DNA of 28,751 bases, taken from positions 1 through 28,751 of the forward strand of contig JACUUP010000010.1 of NCBI GenBank assembly GCA_014859225.1. Direction: 5' to 3'. Made by a program: the position numbers and the translations under genes. Numbering within the stretch: position 1 is the stretch's first letter; each line of letters opens with the position of its first letter. Source of the stretch: Candidatus Aerophobota bacterium. Its GTDB lineage: Bacteria; Aerophobota; Aerophobia; Aerophobales; B3-G15. Under the pieces are notes generated by a model, which was given only the letters and a program-made list of their open reading frames with translations, was not told the DNA's origin and made no database searches. Below are positions 6,250 to 15,305 of the stretch, piece by piece.

Positions 6250-6993
6250 TTACATACTCAAGCCACCGTCAATTCTAATAACCTCGCCGGTAATGTAAGA
6301 AGCTTCATCTGAGCAAAGATATCCAATGAGAGAGGCAACTTCCCTGGGGCTACCAACCCTACCCAGGGGAATTTGAGAAATGAACTTTTTTGCTTTCTCT
6401 TTTTCCATTAGTTTCTCAGTCATCCCGGTTTGAATAAAACCCGGTGCCACTGCGTTTACCGTAATTTTTCTTGCAGCGAACTCCCGGGCGCAGGACTTTG
6501 TTAGCCCAATAATCCCCGCTTTAGATGCAGCATAGTTTGCCTGTCCTGCATTTCCCCGCAGTCCAATTATTGAGGAAATATTGACAATCCTTCCGTTTTT
6601 TCTTCTTAGCATGAAAGGGGAAACTGCCTTTATACAGTTAAAGACACCTTTAAGATTTATTTGAATTACGCTGTCCCACTCCTCCTCTCTCATTCTTAAA
6701 ATAAGCTTATCACGGGTGATGCCAGCATTGTTGACCAATATATCAATGTGGGAAAATTTGTCAATCACTTTACTTACCGCTTCTTTAACCAAGGTAAGTT
6801 CACTCACATCTACCTTAAAAAAAAGGAGAGCATCCTCATACATTTCTGTTAACTTCGCTATCTGTGGTGTAGGCTCCTGCACAACATCAAATATAGCTAC
6901 TTTAGCACCTATTTTAAGAAACATCTGGCATACAGCCATACCAATTCCCTGAGCACCTCCCGTAACTACAGCCACCTTGCTATTTAACTGCAT
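6250..6993 (-). CDS. fabG: 3-oxoacyl-ACP reductase
   Basis: A 247-residue short-chain dehydrogenase, the NADPH-dependent reducing step of fatty-acid elongation. Motifs: cofactor loop TGGAQGIG (11-18), NNAG (88-91), and the catalytic Ser140/141, Tyr154 and Lys158 in NISS and YAASK. The C-terminal block ends in YITGEVIRIDGGLSM, typical of FabG. The ATG overlaps the end of the upstream pseudouridine-synthase gene by 14 bases and has a GGAGAGAG-type SD. The position before acpP supports FabG over other short-chain dehydrogenases. Confidence 0.95.
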   Translation of the reverse strand: MQLNSKVAVVTGGAQGIGMAVCQMFLKIGAKVAIFDVVQEPTPQIAKLTEMYEDALLFFKVDVSELTLVKEAVSKVIDKFSHIDILVNNAGITRDKLILRMREEEWDSVIQINLKGVFNCIKAVSPFMLRRKNGRIVNISSIIGLRGNAGQANYAASKAGIIGLTKSCAREFAARKITVNAVAPGFIQTGMTEKLMEKEKAKKFISQIPLGRVGSPREVASLIGYLCSDEASYITGEVIRIDGGLSM

Positions 6994-7930
6994 ACTCTCT
7001 CTCCAGATAGTTTATTATCTCTTTCATATCCGGGGGTAGAGGAGCCTCAAACTCCATCCATTTTTTTTCTTCCGGATGGAAAAATCCAATAAATTTAGAA
7101 TGGAGCATACAACGACTCACTGGAAGGGGAAAATCTCTTCCTGGTTTTCCTCCGTATAACCTGTCTCCCACAAGATGACAATTTAAGGATTTGAGATGGA
7201 CTCTAATCTGATGAGTCCTGCCTGTTAAAGGATACACTTCAAGTAAACTCCAGTTTTTCCAGGATTTTAAGAGCTTATAGGAAGTTAAAGCTTCCCGGGC
7301 ACACTCTCCACCTGACACCATTTTTGTTCTGTAGATAGGATGCCTCCCAATCTCAAGCTCAACAGTTCCCTCACACAAAGAAGGTTTACCTTTCACTAAA
7401 GCTAAATACCTCTTTTTAATCTCTCTTTTCTTAAACTGACAAGATAGGGCAATATGAGCAGGGTCTGTTTTAGCAACCAGCATTACACCAGATGTCTCTT
7501 TGTCCAGACGATGCACGATGCCGGGGCGCAAAATACCTCCCACCCCCGATAGTCTCTTTGTATGATACAGAAGGGCGTTAACCAGGGTCCCTCTTTGCTG
7601 CGGGTGAACAGGATGTGTTGTCATTCCACCTGCCTTGTTAAGCACAAGAAGAAAATCATCTTCAAACAAAATATGGACTGGTAAAGATTCGGCTGATGGA
7701 AACTCCTCTTCTACGTGAGGAATGGTAATATCAATTTCATCCCCCGATTTGAGAATATATGAAGGTTTCTGCATAAGTTTTTTGCCCACAACTACTTTCC
7801 CCTGATGGATAATCTTTTGAATAAAACTGCGAGAAAATTGAGGAAACCTCTGGTGCAAAAAAATATCCAGGCGCCTTTTGCCTTCTTGTGCTCCCACTTT
7901 TATATGATAATCTTCAGGCAGATTTTCCAT
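6980..7930 (-). CDS. rluD: RluA/RluD-family 23S rRNA pseudouridine synthase
   Basis: A 316-residue protein. The N-terminal S4 RNA-binding domain covers about 17-75 (RRLDIFLHQRF, SRSFIQKIIHQGKV). The catalytic domain contains GIVHRLDKETSGVMLVAKT with the nucleophilic Asp143, and a TGRTHQIRVH motif in the C-terminal half. RluA-family enzymes with an S4 domain most often act on 23S rRNA helix 69 (RluD) or related sites; which uridine is modified cannot be read from sequence. Its start lies inside the last 17 bases of ileS and its end overlaps fabG, so it is translationally embedded in the operon. Confidence 0.85.
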   Translation of the reverse strand: MENLPEDYHIKVGAQEGKRRLDIFLHQRFPQFSRSFIQKIIHQGKVVVGKKLMQKPSYILKSGDEIDITIPHVEEEFPSAESLPVHILFEDDFLLVLNKAGGMTTHPVHPQQRGTLVNALLYHTKRLSGVGGILRPGIVHRLDKETSGVMLVAKTDPAHIALSCQFKKREIKKRYLALVKGKPSLCEGTVELEIGRHPIYRTKMVSGGECAREALTSYKLLKSWKNWSLLEVYPLTGRTHQIRVHLKSLNCHLVGDRLYGGKPGRDFPLPVSRCMLHSKFIGFFHPEEKKWMEFEAPLPPDMKEIINYLEREYAVK

Positions 7931-10712
7931 GTACGTTAATTTCTTCCACTACCAGCCAGCATTTCTCGCAAAGAGAGGGATGTTCATTATTCTCACCCAC
8001 TTTTTCGCTGTAGTTCCAGCATCTTGCACACTTTTTCCCTTTCGCCTTTTCTACATTTATCTTGATATCTGAAAACTGTTTCAGTTCAATCTGAGAAACG
8101 ATAAAAATCTCCTTTAAAGCAACCTCTCCTAAACTGTGCAGTTCCTTCAAGGTATCATCTGGCGCTTTGATAGTTAATCTTGCATCCAGGGAAGAAGAAA
8201 TTTCTTCAGCCTGGCGAGCTTCCTCCAACTTCTTTAAAACCATACCCCTTATTTGCATGAGTCTTTCCCATTTTTTCTCAAGTTCTGCATTAATTAATTC
8301 AGAATTTTCTTCAGGTAAAATAGATAGGAAAACGCTCTCCTCTTTTTCCTTTCCCATCTGTTTTATGTGTCCCCACACTTCCTCAGCCGTGAAGGAGAGC
8401 ACAGGACATATAAGCTTTACTACAGTTACAAGAAGAGAATAAAGCACGTTCTGGGCAGAGCGACGGGCAGATGAGGTTGGATAAAAGGTATATAATCTAT
8501 CTTTCAATATATCAAAATAAAAAGCGCTTAAATAATTATTGGTAAAGTAATGTATCTGTTGAGCTGCTTCATGAAATTTAAAGTTTTCATAGGACAAATT
8601 AACTTTTTGAATTAACCCTTGCACTTTAGATAAAATCCACTTATCTACCTCACGCAGTTCACTGTAGTTTACCTCATCCTGGAGGGGTGAAAAATCAAAT
8701 AAATTACCTAAGAGAAAACGAAAGGAATTTCTAATCTTCCTGTACACCTCAACTGTGTATTTAATTATTTCCTCAGAGATGCGGATGTCCTCGCTGTAAT
8801 CTTCCAGAGCTGACCACAACCTCAATATTTCTGCACCGTATTTTCCTACAATTTGCTGAGGGTCAACTACATTCCCTAAGGATTTGGACATCTTTCTCCC
8901 CTGGGCATCTACAACAAACCCATGCGTTAAAACAGCTTTGTAGGGAGGTCTATTTTTTAATCCCACTGAGGTTAAAAGGGAGCTCTGGAACCATCCCCGG
9001 TGCTGGTCCGAGCCCTCCAGGTAAAGGTCTGCAGGGTCACCTAAATTGGACTCTTTCGCCAGTACCGCCTCATGAGAGATGCCGGACTCAAACCAGACAT
9101 CTATAATATCCTGTTCTTTTTTAAAACTTTCCCCTTTACACTTGGGACATTTAAATCCCGCAGGAATAAAAAAATCTGCCTTTTTTCCAAACCAAACATC
9201 CGAGCTTTCTTCAAGCACTCTTTCTGCAATAAGCTGTATAACCTGCTCATGTAGAATGGGACTTTCACAGAGATTGCAGTATACCACCGGAATACCAACC
9301 CCCCAGAATCTTTGACGGGAAAGACACCAATCCGGGCGCTCCCTTAACATACTGCTCATTCTGCCTTGAGACGGGGAAGGAACCCACTTTATCTCAGATA
9401 TAACTGATTTTAGAGCCTTTTCTCTTAAATTGTTTTCATCCACAATTAAAAACCACTGAGGAGTTGCACGGAAAATCACCGCTCTTCCACACCTCCAGCA
9501 GTGGGGATAGGAGTGATGCAAACTCCCCTGCTGAAAGATAGCACCTCTTCTGGCAAGGTCCTCTTGAATTAGACTGTTAGCCTCAAAAACCTGAATTCCT
9601 TTAAACTTATCCACCTTTTCTGTGAACTTTCCTTCATCATCAAGAGGAGAAAAGATGGGCAGGTCGTTCTCAAGAGCCAAAAAATAATCTTCCTGTCCAT
9701 GCCCGGGAGCAATATGAACACAACCTGTGCCCTCTTCTGGATTAACAAAATCAGCAAGTAAAATTTCTCCTTCCCCTTTTAGAAAAGGCCTCAAATATTT
9801 TGCCCCCTTCAATTTTTTGCCGGGAAAATGACCCACTATCCTCCAATTTTCCAAACTTTTCCCCGTATCATCATTTTTGCCCTGGATATTTTTCAAAGAG
9901 TCACGGGCTATTATCATTGCCTCATTTTCATTCTCTCCCTGAACAAGAACATACTGCAAATCCGGATGGACAGCTATTGCCAGATTAGCAGGAAGAGTCC
10001 AGGGAGTAGTTGTCCATACAAGTATGTAGAGAGAACCTGCAAACGAAATGGGAAGATTGTCCTTGCGCAGAGGTAATTTAACATAGATAGAGGGGGACTC
10101 TTTTACCTTATATTCAATTTCTGCCTCAGCCAGAGCGGTTTGACAGTTAATACACCAGTAAATGGGTTTCATACGGCGATGGATATAACCTTTTTTTGCC
10201 AGATTGCCAAAAGATGTGATGATTTCACTTTCATATGTATAATCCATTGTAAGATAAGGTTTTTCCCAGCGTCCAAAAACACCCAATCTTTTAAACTCAT
10301 CTCTTTGCTTCTGGACAAAATGAAAAGCATATTCCCTTGCCTTTTTTCTAAATTCAAGACACGAGATATCGTTTTTACTAACCCCAAGTTCTTTGAAGAG
10401 TTGATGTTCCACAGGAAGCCCGTGACAGTCCCAACCAGGTACAAAAGGGCAAAAGTAACCTCTCACGATTTTGTACTTTACTATTATATCTTTAAGGATT
10501 TTATTAAAAGCCTGGCCAAGATGTATATCTCCATTGGCATAAGGAGGTCCGTCGTGGAGTATAAATTTTGGAGAATTTAAACGAAGCTCCTGGGCTTTTC
10601 TGTAAATCTTTTTCTTTTCCCAAAAATTTAAGATTTGCAGTTCCTGCTGGGTAAGATTTCCCCGCATGGGAAATGAAGTCTTAGGTAAACTAAGAGTTTT
10701 GTTATAGTCCAT
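7914..10712 (-). CDS. ileS: Isoleucyl-tRNA synthetase
   Basis: A 932-residue class I synthetase, full length for the bacterial type. The ATP site is PPYANGDIHLGQ (56-67), a variant of HIGH, and the second motif is KMSKS at 607-611. The editing (CP1) domain includes VWTTTPWTLPANLA near 232. A C-terminal zinc knuckle has Cys895, Cys898, Cys915 and Cys918 (CARCW ... CEKCW), characteristic of bacterial IleS. The ATG directly follows the punA stop (TAA-ATG) with an AGAGGT SD. A C-terminal overlap of 17 bases links it to the pseudouridine-synthase gene. Confidence 0.97.
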   Translation of the reverse strand: MDYNKTLSLPKTSFPMRGNLTQQELQILNFWEKKKIYRKAQELRLNSPKFILHDGPPYANGDIHLGQAFNKILKDIIVKYKIVRGYFCPFVPGWDCHGLPVEHQLFKELGVSKNDISCLEFRKKAREYAFHFVQKQRDEFKRLGVFGRWEKPYLTMDYTYESEIITSFGNLAKKGYIHRRMKPIYWCINCQTALAEAEIEYKVKESPSIYVKLPLRKDNLPISFAGSLYILVWTTTPWTLPANLAIAVHPDLQYVLVQGENENEAMIIARDSLKNIQGKNDDTGKSLENWRIVGHFPGKKLKGAKYLRPFLKGEGEILLADFVNPEEGTGCVHIAPGHGQEDYFLALENDLPIFSPLDDEGKFTEKVDKFKGIQVFEANSLIQEDLARRGAIFQQGSLHHSYPHCWRCGRAVIFRATPQWFLIVDENNLREKALKSVISEIKWVPSPSQGRMSSMLRERPDWCLSRQRFWGVGIPVVYCNLCESPILHEQVIQLIAERVLEESSDVWFGKKADFFIPAGFKCPKCKGESFKKEQDIIDVWFESGISHEAVLAKESNLGDPADLYLEGSDQHRGWFQSSLLTSVGLKNRPPYKAVLTHGFVVDAQGRKMSKSLGNVVDPQQIVGKYGAEILRLWSALEDYSEDIRISEEIIKYTVEVYRKIRNSFRFLLGNLFDFSPLQDEVNYSELREVDKWILSKVQGLIQKVNLSYENFKFHEAAQQIHYFTNNYLSAFYFDILKDRLYTFYPTSSARRSAQNVLYSLLVTVVKLICPVLSFTAEEVWGHIKQMGKEKEESVFLSILPEENSELINAELEKKWERLMQIRGMVLKKLEEARQAEEISSSLDARLTIKAPDDTLKELHSLGEVALKEIFIVSQIELKQFSDIKINVEKAKGKKCARCWNYSEKVGENNEHPSLCEKCWLVVEEINVHGKSA

Positions 10713-11552: not shown

Positions 11553-11981
11553 CTAAAGCTCTATTGGCTGTGGATTTTGTGATTGGTGAGGATGGTTTGC
11601 TTCAGGATAAACTTTTAGTTTGCTTAACATGCTTCTGCCTAATTTATTTTTGGGTAGCATCCCTTTCACCGCTTTTAAAATAATCTCCTCGGGCTTTTTT
11701 CCCATTAAATCTTCAAAAGTTTCCTTCTTCAAACCTCCGGGATATCCGGAGTGATGGTAATAAATTTTATTCTCACGTTTTTTTCCCGTTACCTTTATGC
11801 ACCTGGCATTTATCACCACCACAAAATCACCCGTATCAAGATGGGGTGTATACATTGGTTTATTTTTACCGGAAAGGAGCAGGGCAATTTTGGTAGCTAA
11901 TCTTCCTAAAATTTTATCCTTTGCATCAACCAAATACCAATTCCTTGTAATTTCTTTTTCCCTGGGGATATATGTTTTCAT
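11553..11981 (-). CDS. rplM: 50S ribosomal protein L13 (uL13)
   Basis: The product is 142 residues, the standard L13 length. I start it at ATG 11981 ([20 protein letters not shown]), which has the SD GAAGGAG about six bases upstream. A longer TTG reading from 11996 would put that SD inside the coding region, so I reject it. Conserved L13 blocks are [24 protein letters not shown] and [12 protein letters not shown]. In most bacteria rpsI (S9) follows rplM directly; here punA follows after 9 bases. No promoter is obvious between tRNA-Glu and rplM, so it may be read through from the gltX-tRNA unit. Confidence 0.96.
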
Positions 11982-12022
11982 TTTAATCTCCTTCAATCAA
12001 GACCTGACCTTTTTATTTATTT

Positions 12023-12098
12023 TGGTGGCGCCACGGGGATTCGAACCCCGGTCTGATGGCTGAGAACCACCTGTCCTGGTCCCCTAGACGATGGCGCC
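12023..12098 (-). tRNA. tRNA-Glu (anticodon CTC)
   Basis: A full cloverleaf can be drawn on the minus strand from 12098: acceptor GGCGCCA pairs with TGGCGCC, and the anticodon stem GGTGG pairs with CCATC (one G-U) around loop TTCTCAG, giving anticodon CTC. The T-arm is CGGGG-TTCGAAT-CCCCG. The discriminator is A and the CCA end is encoded (12025-12023). It follows tRNA-Gln by 69 bases and precedes rplM by 41. CTC reads GAG; a TTC-anticodon isoacceptor must lie elsewhere. Confidence 0.95.
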
Positions 12099-12159: not shown

Positions 12160-13704
12160 TTAATGTGTGGCTGGGGGAGGAGGACTCGAACCTCCACTAC
12201 CAGATCCAGAGTCTGGCGTCCTACCATTAGACAATCCCCCACTTTCTTTTATTAAAAGCTTTAGAGCTCTATCAATCCTGCGAATTACCTCTTCTTTTCC
12301 CAAAACTTCAGCCAGTTCAAATAATCCAGGACCCGTCATTCTGCCGGTAAGAGCTATCCTTAAAGGATGAAAAACCTTACCTGTGGAAAGATTTAATTTT
12401 TCAGCTAATCTGCGTAAAATTTCTTCAAGACCGTCTTGCGTTAAAAGGTCCATCTTCTCTATTTCATGCTTGATTTTTTTTAGAAGAGAATAAACATAAT
12501 CCTTTTTCAGAGTCTTTTCTACTGACTTATCATCTAAGGGAAAATCTTTTTCAAAGAAAAAATCAGTTAGTTTTATAATATCAGAAAGCACCCTCAATCT
12601 ATCTTTTTCCAGCTCACTAATACGCACTATTTTCTTATAAGTAAGAGCATCTATTTTTTCTCCCACCCATCCTCTTTCTCTCAAATGAGGTATAACGAGT
12701 TCAGCGAGCTCATGGATATTAGTTTTTCTTATGTATTCTGCATTCATCCACTCAAGCTTTTGAGAATCAAAAATAGCCGGGCTTTTATTTACCCTATCCA
12801 GCGTAAATTTTTGAATAAGCTCCTCTCTGGTAAAAAACTGTTGACTGTCAACTGTTGACCATCCTAAAAGTGCTAAATAATTTATCAGTGCCCATGGAAG
12901 ATAGCCTTCTTTCCGATAATAGCTAACAGATGTTGCCCCATGTCTTTTGCTTAATTTAGAAGCATCTTTTCCTAAAATCATGGGAATATGAGCATAAAAA
13001 GGTTCCTTAAATCCCAGAGACTGGTAGAGCAAAAGCTGTCTGGGGGTATTAGAAAGATGGTCATCACCTCTAATTACATGAGTTATCCTCATCAAGGCAT
13101 CATCAACAACATTGGCGAAATTAAAAGTAGGCGTTCCATCAGATTTTAAAATGATAAAATCTCCCAACGTCTTGCTATCAAACTTAACTTCCCCCCGCAG
13201 GAGGTCTTTTACTCTAAGTTCACATTCCTGCAAAACCTTAAACCTGACAGCTGGCTTCATACCCTCATTTTCAAGGCTTTTTCTTTCCTTCTCTGAAAGG
13301 TAGCGACACCTACCGTTATAAAGAGGGGGAAGTTTTGCTTTTTGCATTTTTTGTTTTCTTTGCTCAAGTTCTTCAGGTAAACAGTAACAAAAGTAAGCTT
13401 TTTCTTCCTTTAATAGATTATCCGCCAGCCTTTTGTAAACAGGAAGCCTTTCAGATTGTAGATATGGACCATACTCACCTCCAATCTGCGGTCCTTCATC
13501 CCATATAAGTCCCAGCCATTTCAAGTTATCAATTATAGATTTAGTAAAATCTTCCCGGGAGCGTAAAGTGTCTGTGTTCTCTATCCTGAGTATAAATTTT
13601 CCTTTATTGTGTCGAGCAAAAAGCCAGTTAAATAGCGCTGTCCTTAACCCTCCAATATGAAGCTCCCCCGTGGGAGAAGGAGCAAAACGAACCCTTGCTT
13701 GCAT
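12160..13704 (-). CDS. gltX: Glutamyl-tRNA synthetase, 3' end overlapping tRNA-Gln
   Basis: A class I synthetase charging tRNA-Glu, and tRNA-Gln too if non-discriminating. The ATP-site motif is PSPTGELHIGGLRTALFNWL (HIGG, 16-19) and the second motif is KLSKR (250-254). Cys106, Cys108 and Cys133 form a zinc-site-like CYC ... GRC. The normal GluRS C-terminus ends near residue 487 (RRIDRALKLLI). There is no stop there: residues 488-514, a Gly/Ser/Pro-rich tail ending SSPPPPATH, are the tRNA-Gln gene read in frame. A TAATAA (12249-12254) lies in the +1 frame just before the tRNA, so one missing base in the T-run would restore a normal end. Confidence 0.93.
   Translation of the reverse strand: MQARVRFAPSPTGELHIGGLRTALFNWLFARHNKGKFILRIENTDTLRSREDFTKSIIDNLKWLGLIWDEGPQIGGEYGPYLQSERLPVYKRLADNLLKEEKAYFCYCLPEELEQRKQKMQKAKLPPLYNGRCRYLSEKERKSLENEGMKPAVRFKVLQECELRVKDLLRGEVKFDSKTLGDFIILKSDGTPTFNFANVVDDALMRITHVIRGDDHLSNTPRQLLLYQSLGFKEPFYAHIPMILGKDASKLSKRHGATSVSYYRKEGYLPWALINYLALLGWSTVDSQQFFTREELIQKFTLDRVNKSPAIFDSQKLEWMNAEYIRKTNIHELAELVIPHLRERGWVGEKIDALTYKKIVRISELEKDRLRVLSDIIKLTDFFFEKDFPLDDKSVEKTLKKDYVYSLLKKIKHEIEKMDLLTQDGLEEILRRLAEKLNLSTGKVFHPLRIALTGRMTGPGLFELAEVLGKEEVIRRIDRALKLLIKESGGLSNGRTPDSGSGSGGSSPPPPATH
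12168..12241 (-). tRNA. tRNA-Gln (anticodon CTG)
   Basis: Minus-strand cloverleaf from 12241: acceptor TGGGGGA pairs with TCCCCCA, anticodon stem CCAGA/TCTGG around loop CTCTGGA gives anticodon CTG, and the T-arm is GGAGG-TTCGAGT-CCTCC. The discriminator is G and CCA is encoded (12170-12168). The entire gene lies inside the open reading frame of gltX on the same strand: the gltX frame enters at the first tRNA base and stops six bases after the encoded CCA. Confidence 0.95.
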
Positions 13705-14579: not shown

Positions 14580-15305
14580 TTAATGTCCTCTTATTATATT
14601 AAGTTTTCCCCAGGCTCCTAATTTTTCACCTCTAACTATTAGTCCTCCTTTTATCCCGGAGATGTTCCTTAAGAACTTCAATCCTCTCTTAATATCTTTT
14701 TCCTCTTTTATTATATTTCCAACTGCTGTGGCTGTTGCATCAGCTAAAGCGGTATCAGATGAGAGTATCACAACTGCATCAGCTTCTCCTAAACTCAAGG
14801 AATGCCCAAAGCTGCCTGCTGAGGTGCATATGCCAAGCGGGGTCTCATCTGGCTCTATCTGTAAAGCAATACGCCCACTCAAAGGAGAATCGCCCGCATA
14901 TATCCCAACTTTTCTTTGCCTGGTTATCCTCATAAAAATATCCCCGCCATTTTCAACAATCACCTGTTTGCAGCAGGTAAGTAAGTCTTTCCCCACAAAC
15001 TCAGCTATGGCTCCGGCTACAGCAGCCATAGGACCTACTCCTGCTTTTTTAGAAGCCTCACTCATACACTTTACAATTGGGGGCATATTTTCCTCAATAG
15101 TAAAGCTCTTAAGAGTTTCTCTGAAGCAAGGGTTAAAATAAATATATCTTTCTATATCCTGACGGTACTTTAACAAAGCTTCCTCCGTTTCCCGGACTAA
15201 CTTTTTATCACAAAGAATAAATAAATCACTCTCTTTAATGCGCACTTTGAAAGAAATCAGGTCTTTTGATTGTATTAGTTTTCTATATACATGATTCTCC
15301 CCCAC
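14580..15305 (-). CDS. UPF0280 family protein
   Basis: A 241-residue protein starting at GTG 15305 with a strong SD (AGGAGG, five to six bases away). Family landmarks include a KKAGVGPMAAVAGAIAEFVG stretch (about 90-110), then VIVENGGDIFMR (about 137-148) and SAGSFGHSLSLGEADAVVI. UPF0280 proteins are distantly ApbE-like; ApbE is an FMN transferase, but the function of UPF0280 is not established to my knowledge. It lies 12 bases downstream of V-ATPase F and just upstream of the TPR gene. Confidence 0.85.
   Translation of the reverse strand: MGENHVYRKLIQSKDLISFKVRIKESDLFILCDKKLVRETEEALLKYRQDIERYIYFNPCFRETLKSFTIEENMPPIVKCMSEASKKAGVGPMAAVAGAIAEFVGKDLLTCCKQVIVENGGDIFMRITRQRKVGIYAGDSPLSGRIALQIEPDETPLGICTSAGSFGHSLSLGEADAVVILSSDTALADATATAVGNIIKEEKDIKRGLKFLRNISGIKGGLIVRGEKLGAWGKLNIIRGH

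Follow-up and report, generated by a model that had tools for sequence, protein, structure and literature searches.

The glutamyl-tRNA synthetase (GluRS) gene, gltX, in the window analysed here (28,751 nt; contig C236 of the Candidatus Aerophobota genome G000, a metagenome assembly of 1.81 Mb that is 91 % complete) had no stop codon ahead of the tRNA-Gln(CTG) gene on the same strand, and all 74 bases of the tRNA were read in the gltX frame, as a sequence-only reading had proposed. This is probably a genuine nested overlap, in which the gltX stop was lost by drift within a packed unit and which is mainly tolerated rather than being an evolved control switch. The gltX ORF was a single open frame with no internal stops (Table 1), which entered the tRNA at base 2 (..AAA GAA AG[T GGG GGA TTG..) and left it as ..CCC CCA GCC A; five bases (CACAT), and not six as first read, separated the encoded CCA from the TAA stop. 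The entire tRNA was thus contained in the ORF, on the same strand, in frame and without a stop, which is nesting of the selB/selC type. Overlap of the stop with the start of the next ORF, which is frequent in selB but not universal, was not treated as defining; the gltX stop showed no such overlap, the next feature being tRNA-Glu, followed by rplM at 11996. Among the approximately 32 tRNAs of G000, only tRNA-Gln(CTG) was read through by a recognizable gene.

Table 1. Positions of gltX, the nested tRNA and neighbouring features in the window
Feature	Position	Strand	Remarks
gltX, GluRS ORF	12160..13704	-	514 codons, ATG start, TAA stop 12160-12162; TIGR00464 573 bits
tRNA-Gln(CTG) gene, encoded CCA, entirely within the gltX frame	12168..12241	-	Rfam 65.2 bits
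tRNA-derived C-terminal tail of GluRS, residues 488-514, SGGLSNGRTPDSGSGSGGSSPPPPATH	12163..12243	-	Predicted disordered
TAATAA, +1 frame relative to gltX	12249..12254	-	gltX stop only if one upstream base is missing
tRNA-Glu(CTC), second GluRS substrate, next after tRNA-Gln	12023..12098	-	
rplM (ribosomal protein L13), downstream of both tRNAs	11553..11996	-	PF00572

The GluRS of the window was of the standard bacterial type, with a TIGR00464 score of 573 bits against a cut-off of 290, and the Pfam match stopped at residue 481. An AlphaFold2 model built from 11 relatives (mean pLDDT 75) carried the terminal helix to approximately residue 488 and left residues 489–514 disordered, in agreement with the earlier proposal that the enzyme body ends near residue 487 and that the rest is translated tRNA sequence (example peptide of the predicted tail, TPDSGSGSGGSSPPPPATH). 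The tail contains PPPP, which makes the presence of EF-P relevant; EF-P was found in 15 of the 17 genomes of the phylum, including G000 and G007, and was not found in the incomplete genome G005.

Relatives were identified by a protein search of 60 related genomes and their gltX/tRNA joints were then read. In-frame read-through of the whole tRNA occurred in three of the 10 readable Aerophobota loci, belonging to three families (G000, G005 and G007), so that an event unique to G000 could be rejected. In G005 (L004, public record JAGHCO010000227.1) gltX read through the entire tRNA-Gln to a stop inside tRNA-Glu, giving a tail ending ..GGSASGRPQDSGSCSGGSNPPPPAKLAPSSRG, and in G007 (L007) it also read through the entire tRNA-Gln (tail ..GGGSASGRPRDSGSRSGGSNPPPPANFFGRE). 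The seven other loci had a stop before the tRNA, at distances, measured to the tRNA starts placed by ARAGORN, of 0 (G008), 4 (G001), 8 (G004), 17 (G003), 52 (G002), 65 (G011) and 98 bases (G015); these included G001 and G002, the closest relatives, which belong to the same family as G000. Well-supported branches of the GluRS tree forced three changes of the read-through state; these may all be gains, or may be a single gain with two losses. All three read-throughs shared one tRNA frame, but as two frames are open, three cases do not make this preference significant.

A profile of the fused C-terminus, run against 386 genomes, gave, among the matches listed, stop-free read-through in G000, G005 and G007 only, and a widespread trait was rejected at the sensitivity used. 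The gene order gltX, tRNA-Gln(CUG), tRNA-Glu(CUC) was conserved in the phylum and recurred in others. In other lineages (G164, G335, G362 and G233) the same order was found with the stop 2–80 bases before the tRNA; a search of the class around G164, where the gltX stop lies 2 bases before the tRNA, covered three genomes and yielded nothing further. More broadly, gltX was followed by tRNA-Gln(CUG), and often by tRNA-Glu(CUC), in several other lineages (L016, L027, L035, L133, L134, L135, L143 and L151), and the gltX-linked tRNAs were C34 isoacceptors in every case seen. In G007 and G011, glnS came directly after the tRNA.

The comparison with relatives bears on whether the overlap could be an artefact, produced by the loss or gain of one base close to the gltX end, with TAATAA as the real stop. 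The motif was correctly located by the sequence-only reading, it lies in the +1 frame near the natural end of GluRS, and the sequence comes from a metagenome assembly. The T-run to which a possible error had been ascribed (12247–12250) is AAAA on the coding strand and lies downstream of TAATAA; loss of a base there would leave TAATAA out of frame, and gltX would run into the tRNA in the other of the two open tRNA frames (stop offset 92). TAATAA comes into frame only if a base is missing upstream of it, e.g. in the coding-strand T-run at 12254–12257. Such an error is nevertheless very improbable, because the same read-through was present in two further genomes from different families (G005 and G007) and because the assembled frame agreed with relatives past the T-run (RALKLL, compared with RALNLL in G001); the run is, moreover, only four bases long. 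Sequencing error was therefore largely rejected, given the read-through in two further families and the conserved residues beyond the T-run.

GatB was present in all 17 genomes of the phylum (GatB_N match in G000, 401.8 bits), whilst GlnRS (TIGR00440) gave no match over the cut-off in the incomplete G000 assembly and reached the cut-off only in family f6 among the 17 genomes. On this pattern, with GatB as the marker searched on the amidotransferase side, G000 was assigned a non-discriminating GluRS and the indirect Gln-tRNA pathway. With GatB present and GlnRS undetected, GluRS should charge tRNA-Gln as well as tRNA-Glu, and the nested tRNA is very probably its substrate, as the first reading had supposed. 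Judging from gene content, the single GluRS of G000 should make the Glu-tRNA-Gln used by the amidotransferase, and the enzyme and its substrate tRNAs should share one locus. A second isoacceptor, tRNA-Gln(UUG), was seen in G001, G005 and G007 and was not found in the incomplete genome of G000; since it occurs in three relatives, the nested tRNA is probably not the sole tRNA-Gln. In all three read-through genomes, the cloverleaf was predicted as the minimum-energy structure when the tRNA stretch was folded within its RNA context. tmRNA scored over the cut-off in 14 of the 17 genomes, including the same three.

On the favoured interpretation of a tolerated overlap, gltX, tRNA-Gln(CUG) and tRNA-Glu(CUC) would form a tightly packed, co-transcribed unit. 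The gltX stop, which usually lies a few bases ahead of the tRNA, was presumably lost from it by drift, so that the frame runs to the next stop. A ribosome on the uncut transcript would decode the tRNA as 26 codons and yield GluRS with a harmless disordered tail. Where the tRNA folds instead, RNase P would cut at 12241/12242, releasing mature tRNA-Gln and leaving a stop-less gltX message, and ribosomes on that message would be cleared by ribosome rescue, for which tmRNA is available. The stop-less message, anticipated in the sequence-only reading, is a necessary consequence of cleavage at the 5′ end of an overlapping tRNA. The scheme follows from the anatomy of the locus, unless the two products stem from separate transcripts.

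The packing of tRNAs behind protein-coding genes was surveyed in five Aerophobota genomes. Of their approximately 158 tRNA genes, many followed a same-strand gene at a distance of 0–15 bases. In a set of 151 distinct tRNA sequences, 42 % of frames were fully open, and therefore the loss of one stop will often yield full read-through; two of the three frames of tRNA-Gln(CTG) were open. An open tRNA is thus unremarkable once the stop is missing, and the missing stop is the notable part. A stop triplet at positions 8–10 was found in 94 of the 151 tRNAs, where it provides a built-in stop for an upstream frame in that phase; tRNA-Gln(CUG) had no stop triplet at these positions.

Several other gene/tRNA overlaps were encountered. 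In four genomes the TAG stop of a conserved, small multidrug-export-like gene (PF06695; L061 1001–1579 in G000:C209, L191, L211 and L224) was U8-A9-G10 of tRNA-Pro(CGG), and this message would also be left without a stop by an RNase P cut at the tRNA. In G005:C133, serS (6685–7977, minus strand; L224, L231) extended 36 bases into tRNA-Ser(UGA), stop included, the TGA stop being the anticodon of the tRNA. In G010 and G003, 5–6 bases separated the end of serS from tRNA-Ser(UGA), and in G011 the tRNA-Ser sequence started directly after serS, the contig ending inside the tRNA; the link between serS and tRNA-Ser(UGA) was absent in G000 and G001. An integrase-family ORF in G007:C6 (L206 491–1141) continued in frame through the whole of tRNA-Leu(CAA), possibly a trace of element integration at this tRNA. 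In four genomes (L154, L175, L188 and L199) an apparent cysS, identified by eye from its C-terminal sequence, was followed after 4–78 bases by tRNA-Thr(UGU), a non-cognate pair. A 109-codon frame through tRNA-Pro(UGG) in G000 contained no recognizable gene and was set aside as probably spurious.

The overlap might instead be an evolved either/or switch, in which tRNA folding and RNase P destroy the gltX message, translation hides the tRNA, and the levels of enzyme and substrate regulate each other. Genes for the enzyme and for the tRNAs that it probably charges lie together in the phylum and in several other lineages, and the same model has been proposed for selB/selC; the idea is kept alive by the recurrence of the read-through at the same joint in three families and by the second synthetase/cognate-tRNA overlap, serS in G005. 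It is nonetheless unlikely. Even in its own family, G000 does not share the state with G001 and G002, which carry stops, overlaps also affect genes unrelated to their tRNA (the PF06695 gene and the integrase), and three relatives have tRNA-Gln(UUG). Its general form, in which the Aerophobota overlaps of synthetases with cognate tRNAs (gltX/tRNA-Gln and serS/tRNA-Ser) are such devices and maturation of the tRNA by RNase P destroys the synthetase message, is most doubtful; if it were true, the ratio of enzyme to tRNA would be self-adjusting. It is also rather improbable that the tRNA is made mostly from its own promoter inside gltX, or that the gltX RNA is rarely cut, with almost no consequence beyond the C-terminal tail. 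The tRNA is intact and is predicted to fold in context, and nothing ties both products to one transcript, but a simple consensus scan located neither a sigma-70-like promoter immediately ahead of the tRNA on the tRNA strand nor a terminator between gltX and the tRNAs, such scans being weak evidence.

Tolerance is favoured over these alternatives because the state is patchy, is absent in the two nearest relatives, occurs alongside a second isoacceptor in relatives and is set against a general close packing of tRNAs; taken with the three tree changes, the same observations left the feedback on GluRS suggested in the sequence-only reading unsupported. In G008, G001, G004 and G003 the stop lies only 0, 4, 8 and 17 bases, respectively, ahead of the tRNA, which also counts for tolerance. 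Against tolerance, loss of the stop three times at one joint could mean that the overlap is useful, the serS/tRNA-Ser overlap in G005, as a second overlap of a synthetase gene with its cognate tRNA, hints at something particular about synthetases, and loss of the stop from the message at every cut would seem a high price for an essential, single-copy gene.

The closest precedent for the gltX/tRNA-Gln overlap is the tRNA-Sec gene (selC) nested in selB in Alphaproteobacteria, reported as the first tRNA nested in a bacterial protein ORF (Mukai, 2021; PMC8124441). RNase P/nonstop-mRNA logic was proposed there, alternative expression of protein or tRNA is a hypothesis in that system too, and the overlap has been patchily lost among relatives. 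In both systems a whole tRNA lies in frame in the 3′ end of an ORF for a protein that handles that tRNA (for GluRS probably, judging from gene content), translation of the tRNA supplies the C-terminal tail, the ORF ends ahead of the tRNA in some relatives and an RNase P cut would give a nonstop mRNA. They differ in that gltX encodes an essential housekeeping synthetase and its tRNA is an ordinary elongator, in that the gltX stop does not overlap a following ORF start and in that the gltX state is patchier. A whole tRNA-Lys also lies inside the coding region of cox1, in the same orientation, in Armadillidium mitochondria (Doublet, 2015, as cited in PMC8124441); that pair sits in a compact mitochondrial genome and is not an enzyme and its substrate.

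Human mitochondrial messages and arfA are looser parallels for stop-less messages. Human mitochondrial messages are flanked by tRNAs, whose cutting gives messages without a stop codon, and polyadenylation completes the stop (PMC9674279), whereas the cut G000 message would end ..GAA AG, where addition of A makes no stop. The cut gltX message of G005 (L004 2964–3063) would end ..GGT TA, and one added A would give TAA, as in mitochondria; the presence of an A-completable stop in G005 but not in G000 or G007 is possibly due to chance. For arfA, as outlined in PMC10107115, a stop-less message likewise couples the product to ribosome rescue, but this takes place without a tRNA, and the arfA product is a rescue factor in its own right.

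No report of an overlap of gltX or another synthetase gene with a tRNA was found in the open-access literature that was searched. With the present locus, the single bacterial precedent found in print, selB/selC, is joined by a housekeeping synthetase whose state recurs within one phylum. The locus is also a natural setting in which one RNA would have to be contested by the ribosome, RNase P and ribosome rescue. The ends of such genes could be misplaced by gene finders that bar overlap of coding sequences with tRNAs. Upstream of gltX, the window also contained a 241-codon ORF with no Pfam match (14580–15305, minus strand), flanked by genes for a V-type ATPase subunit F and a TPR protein.
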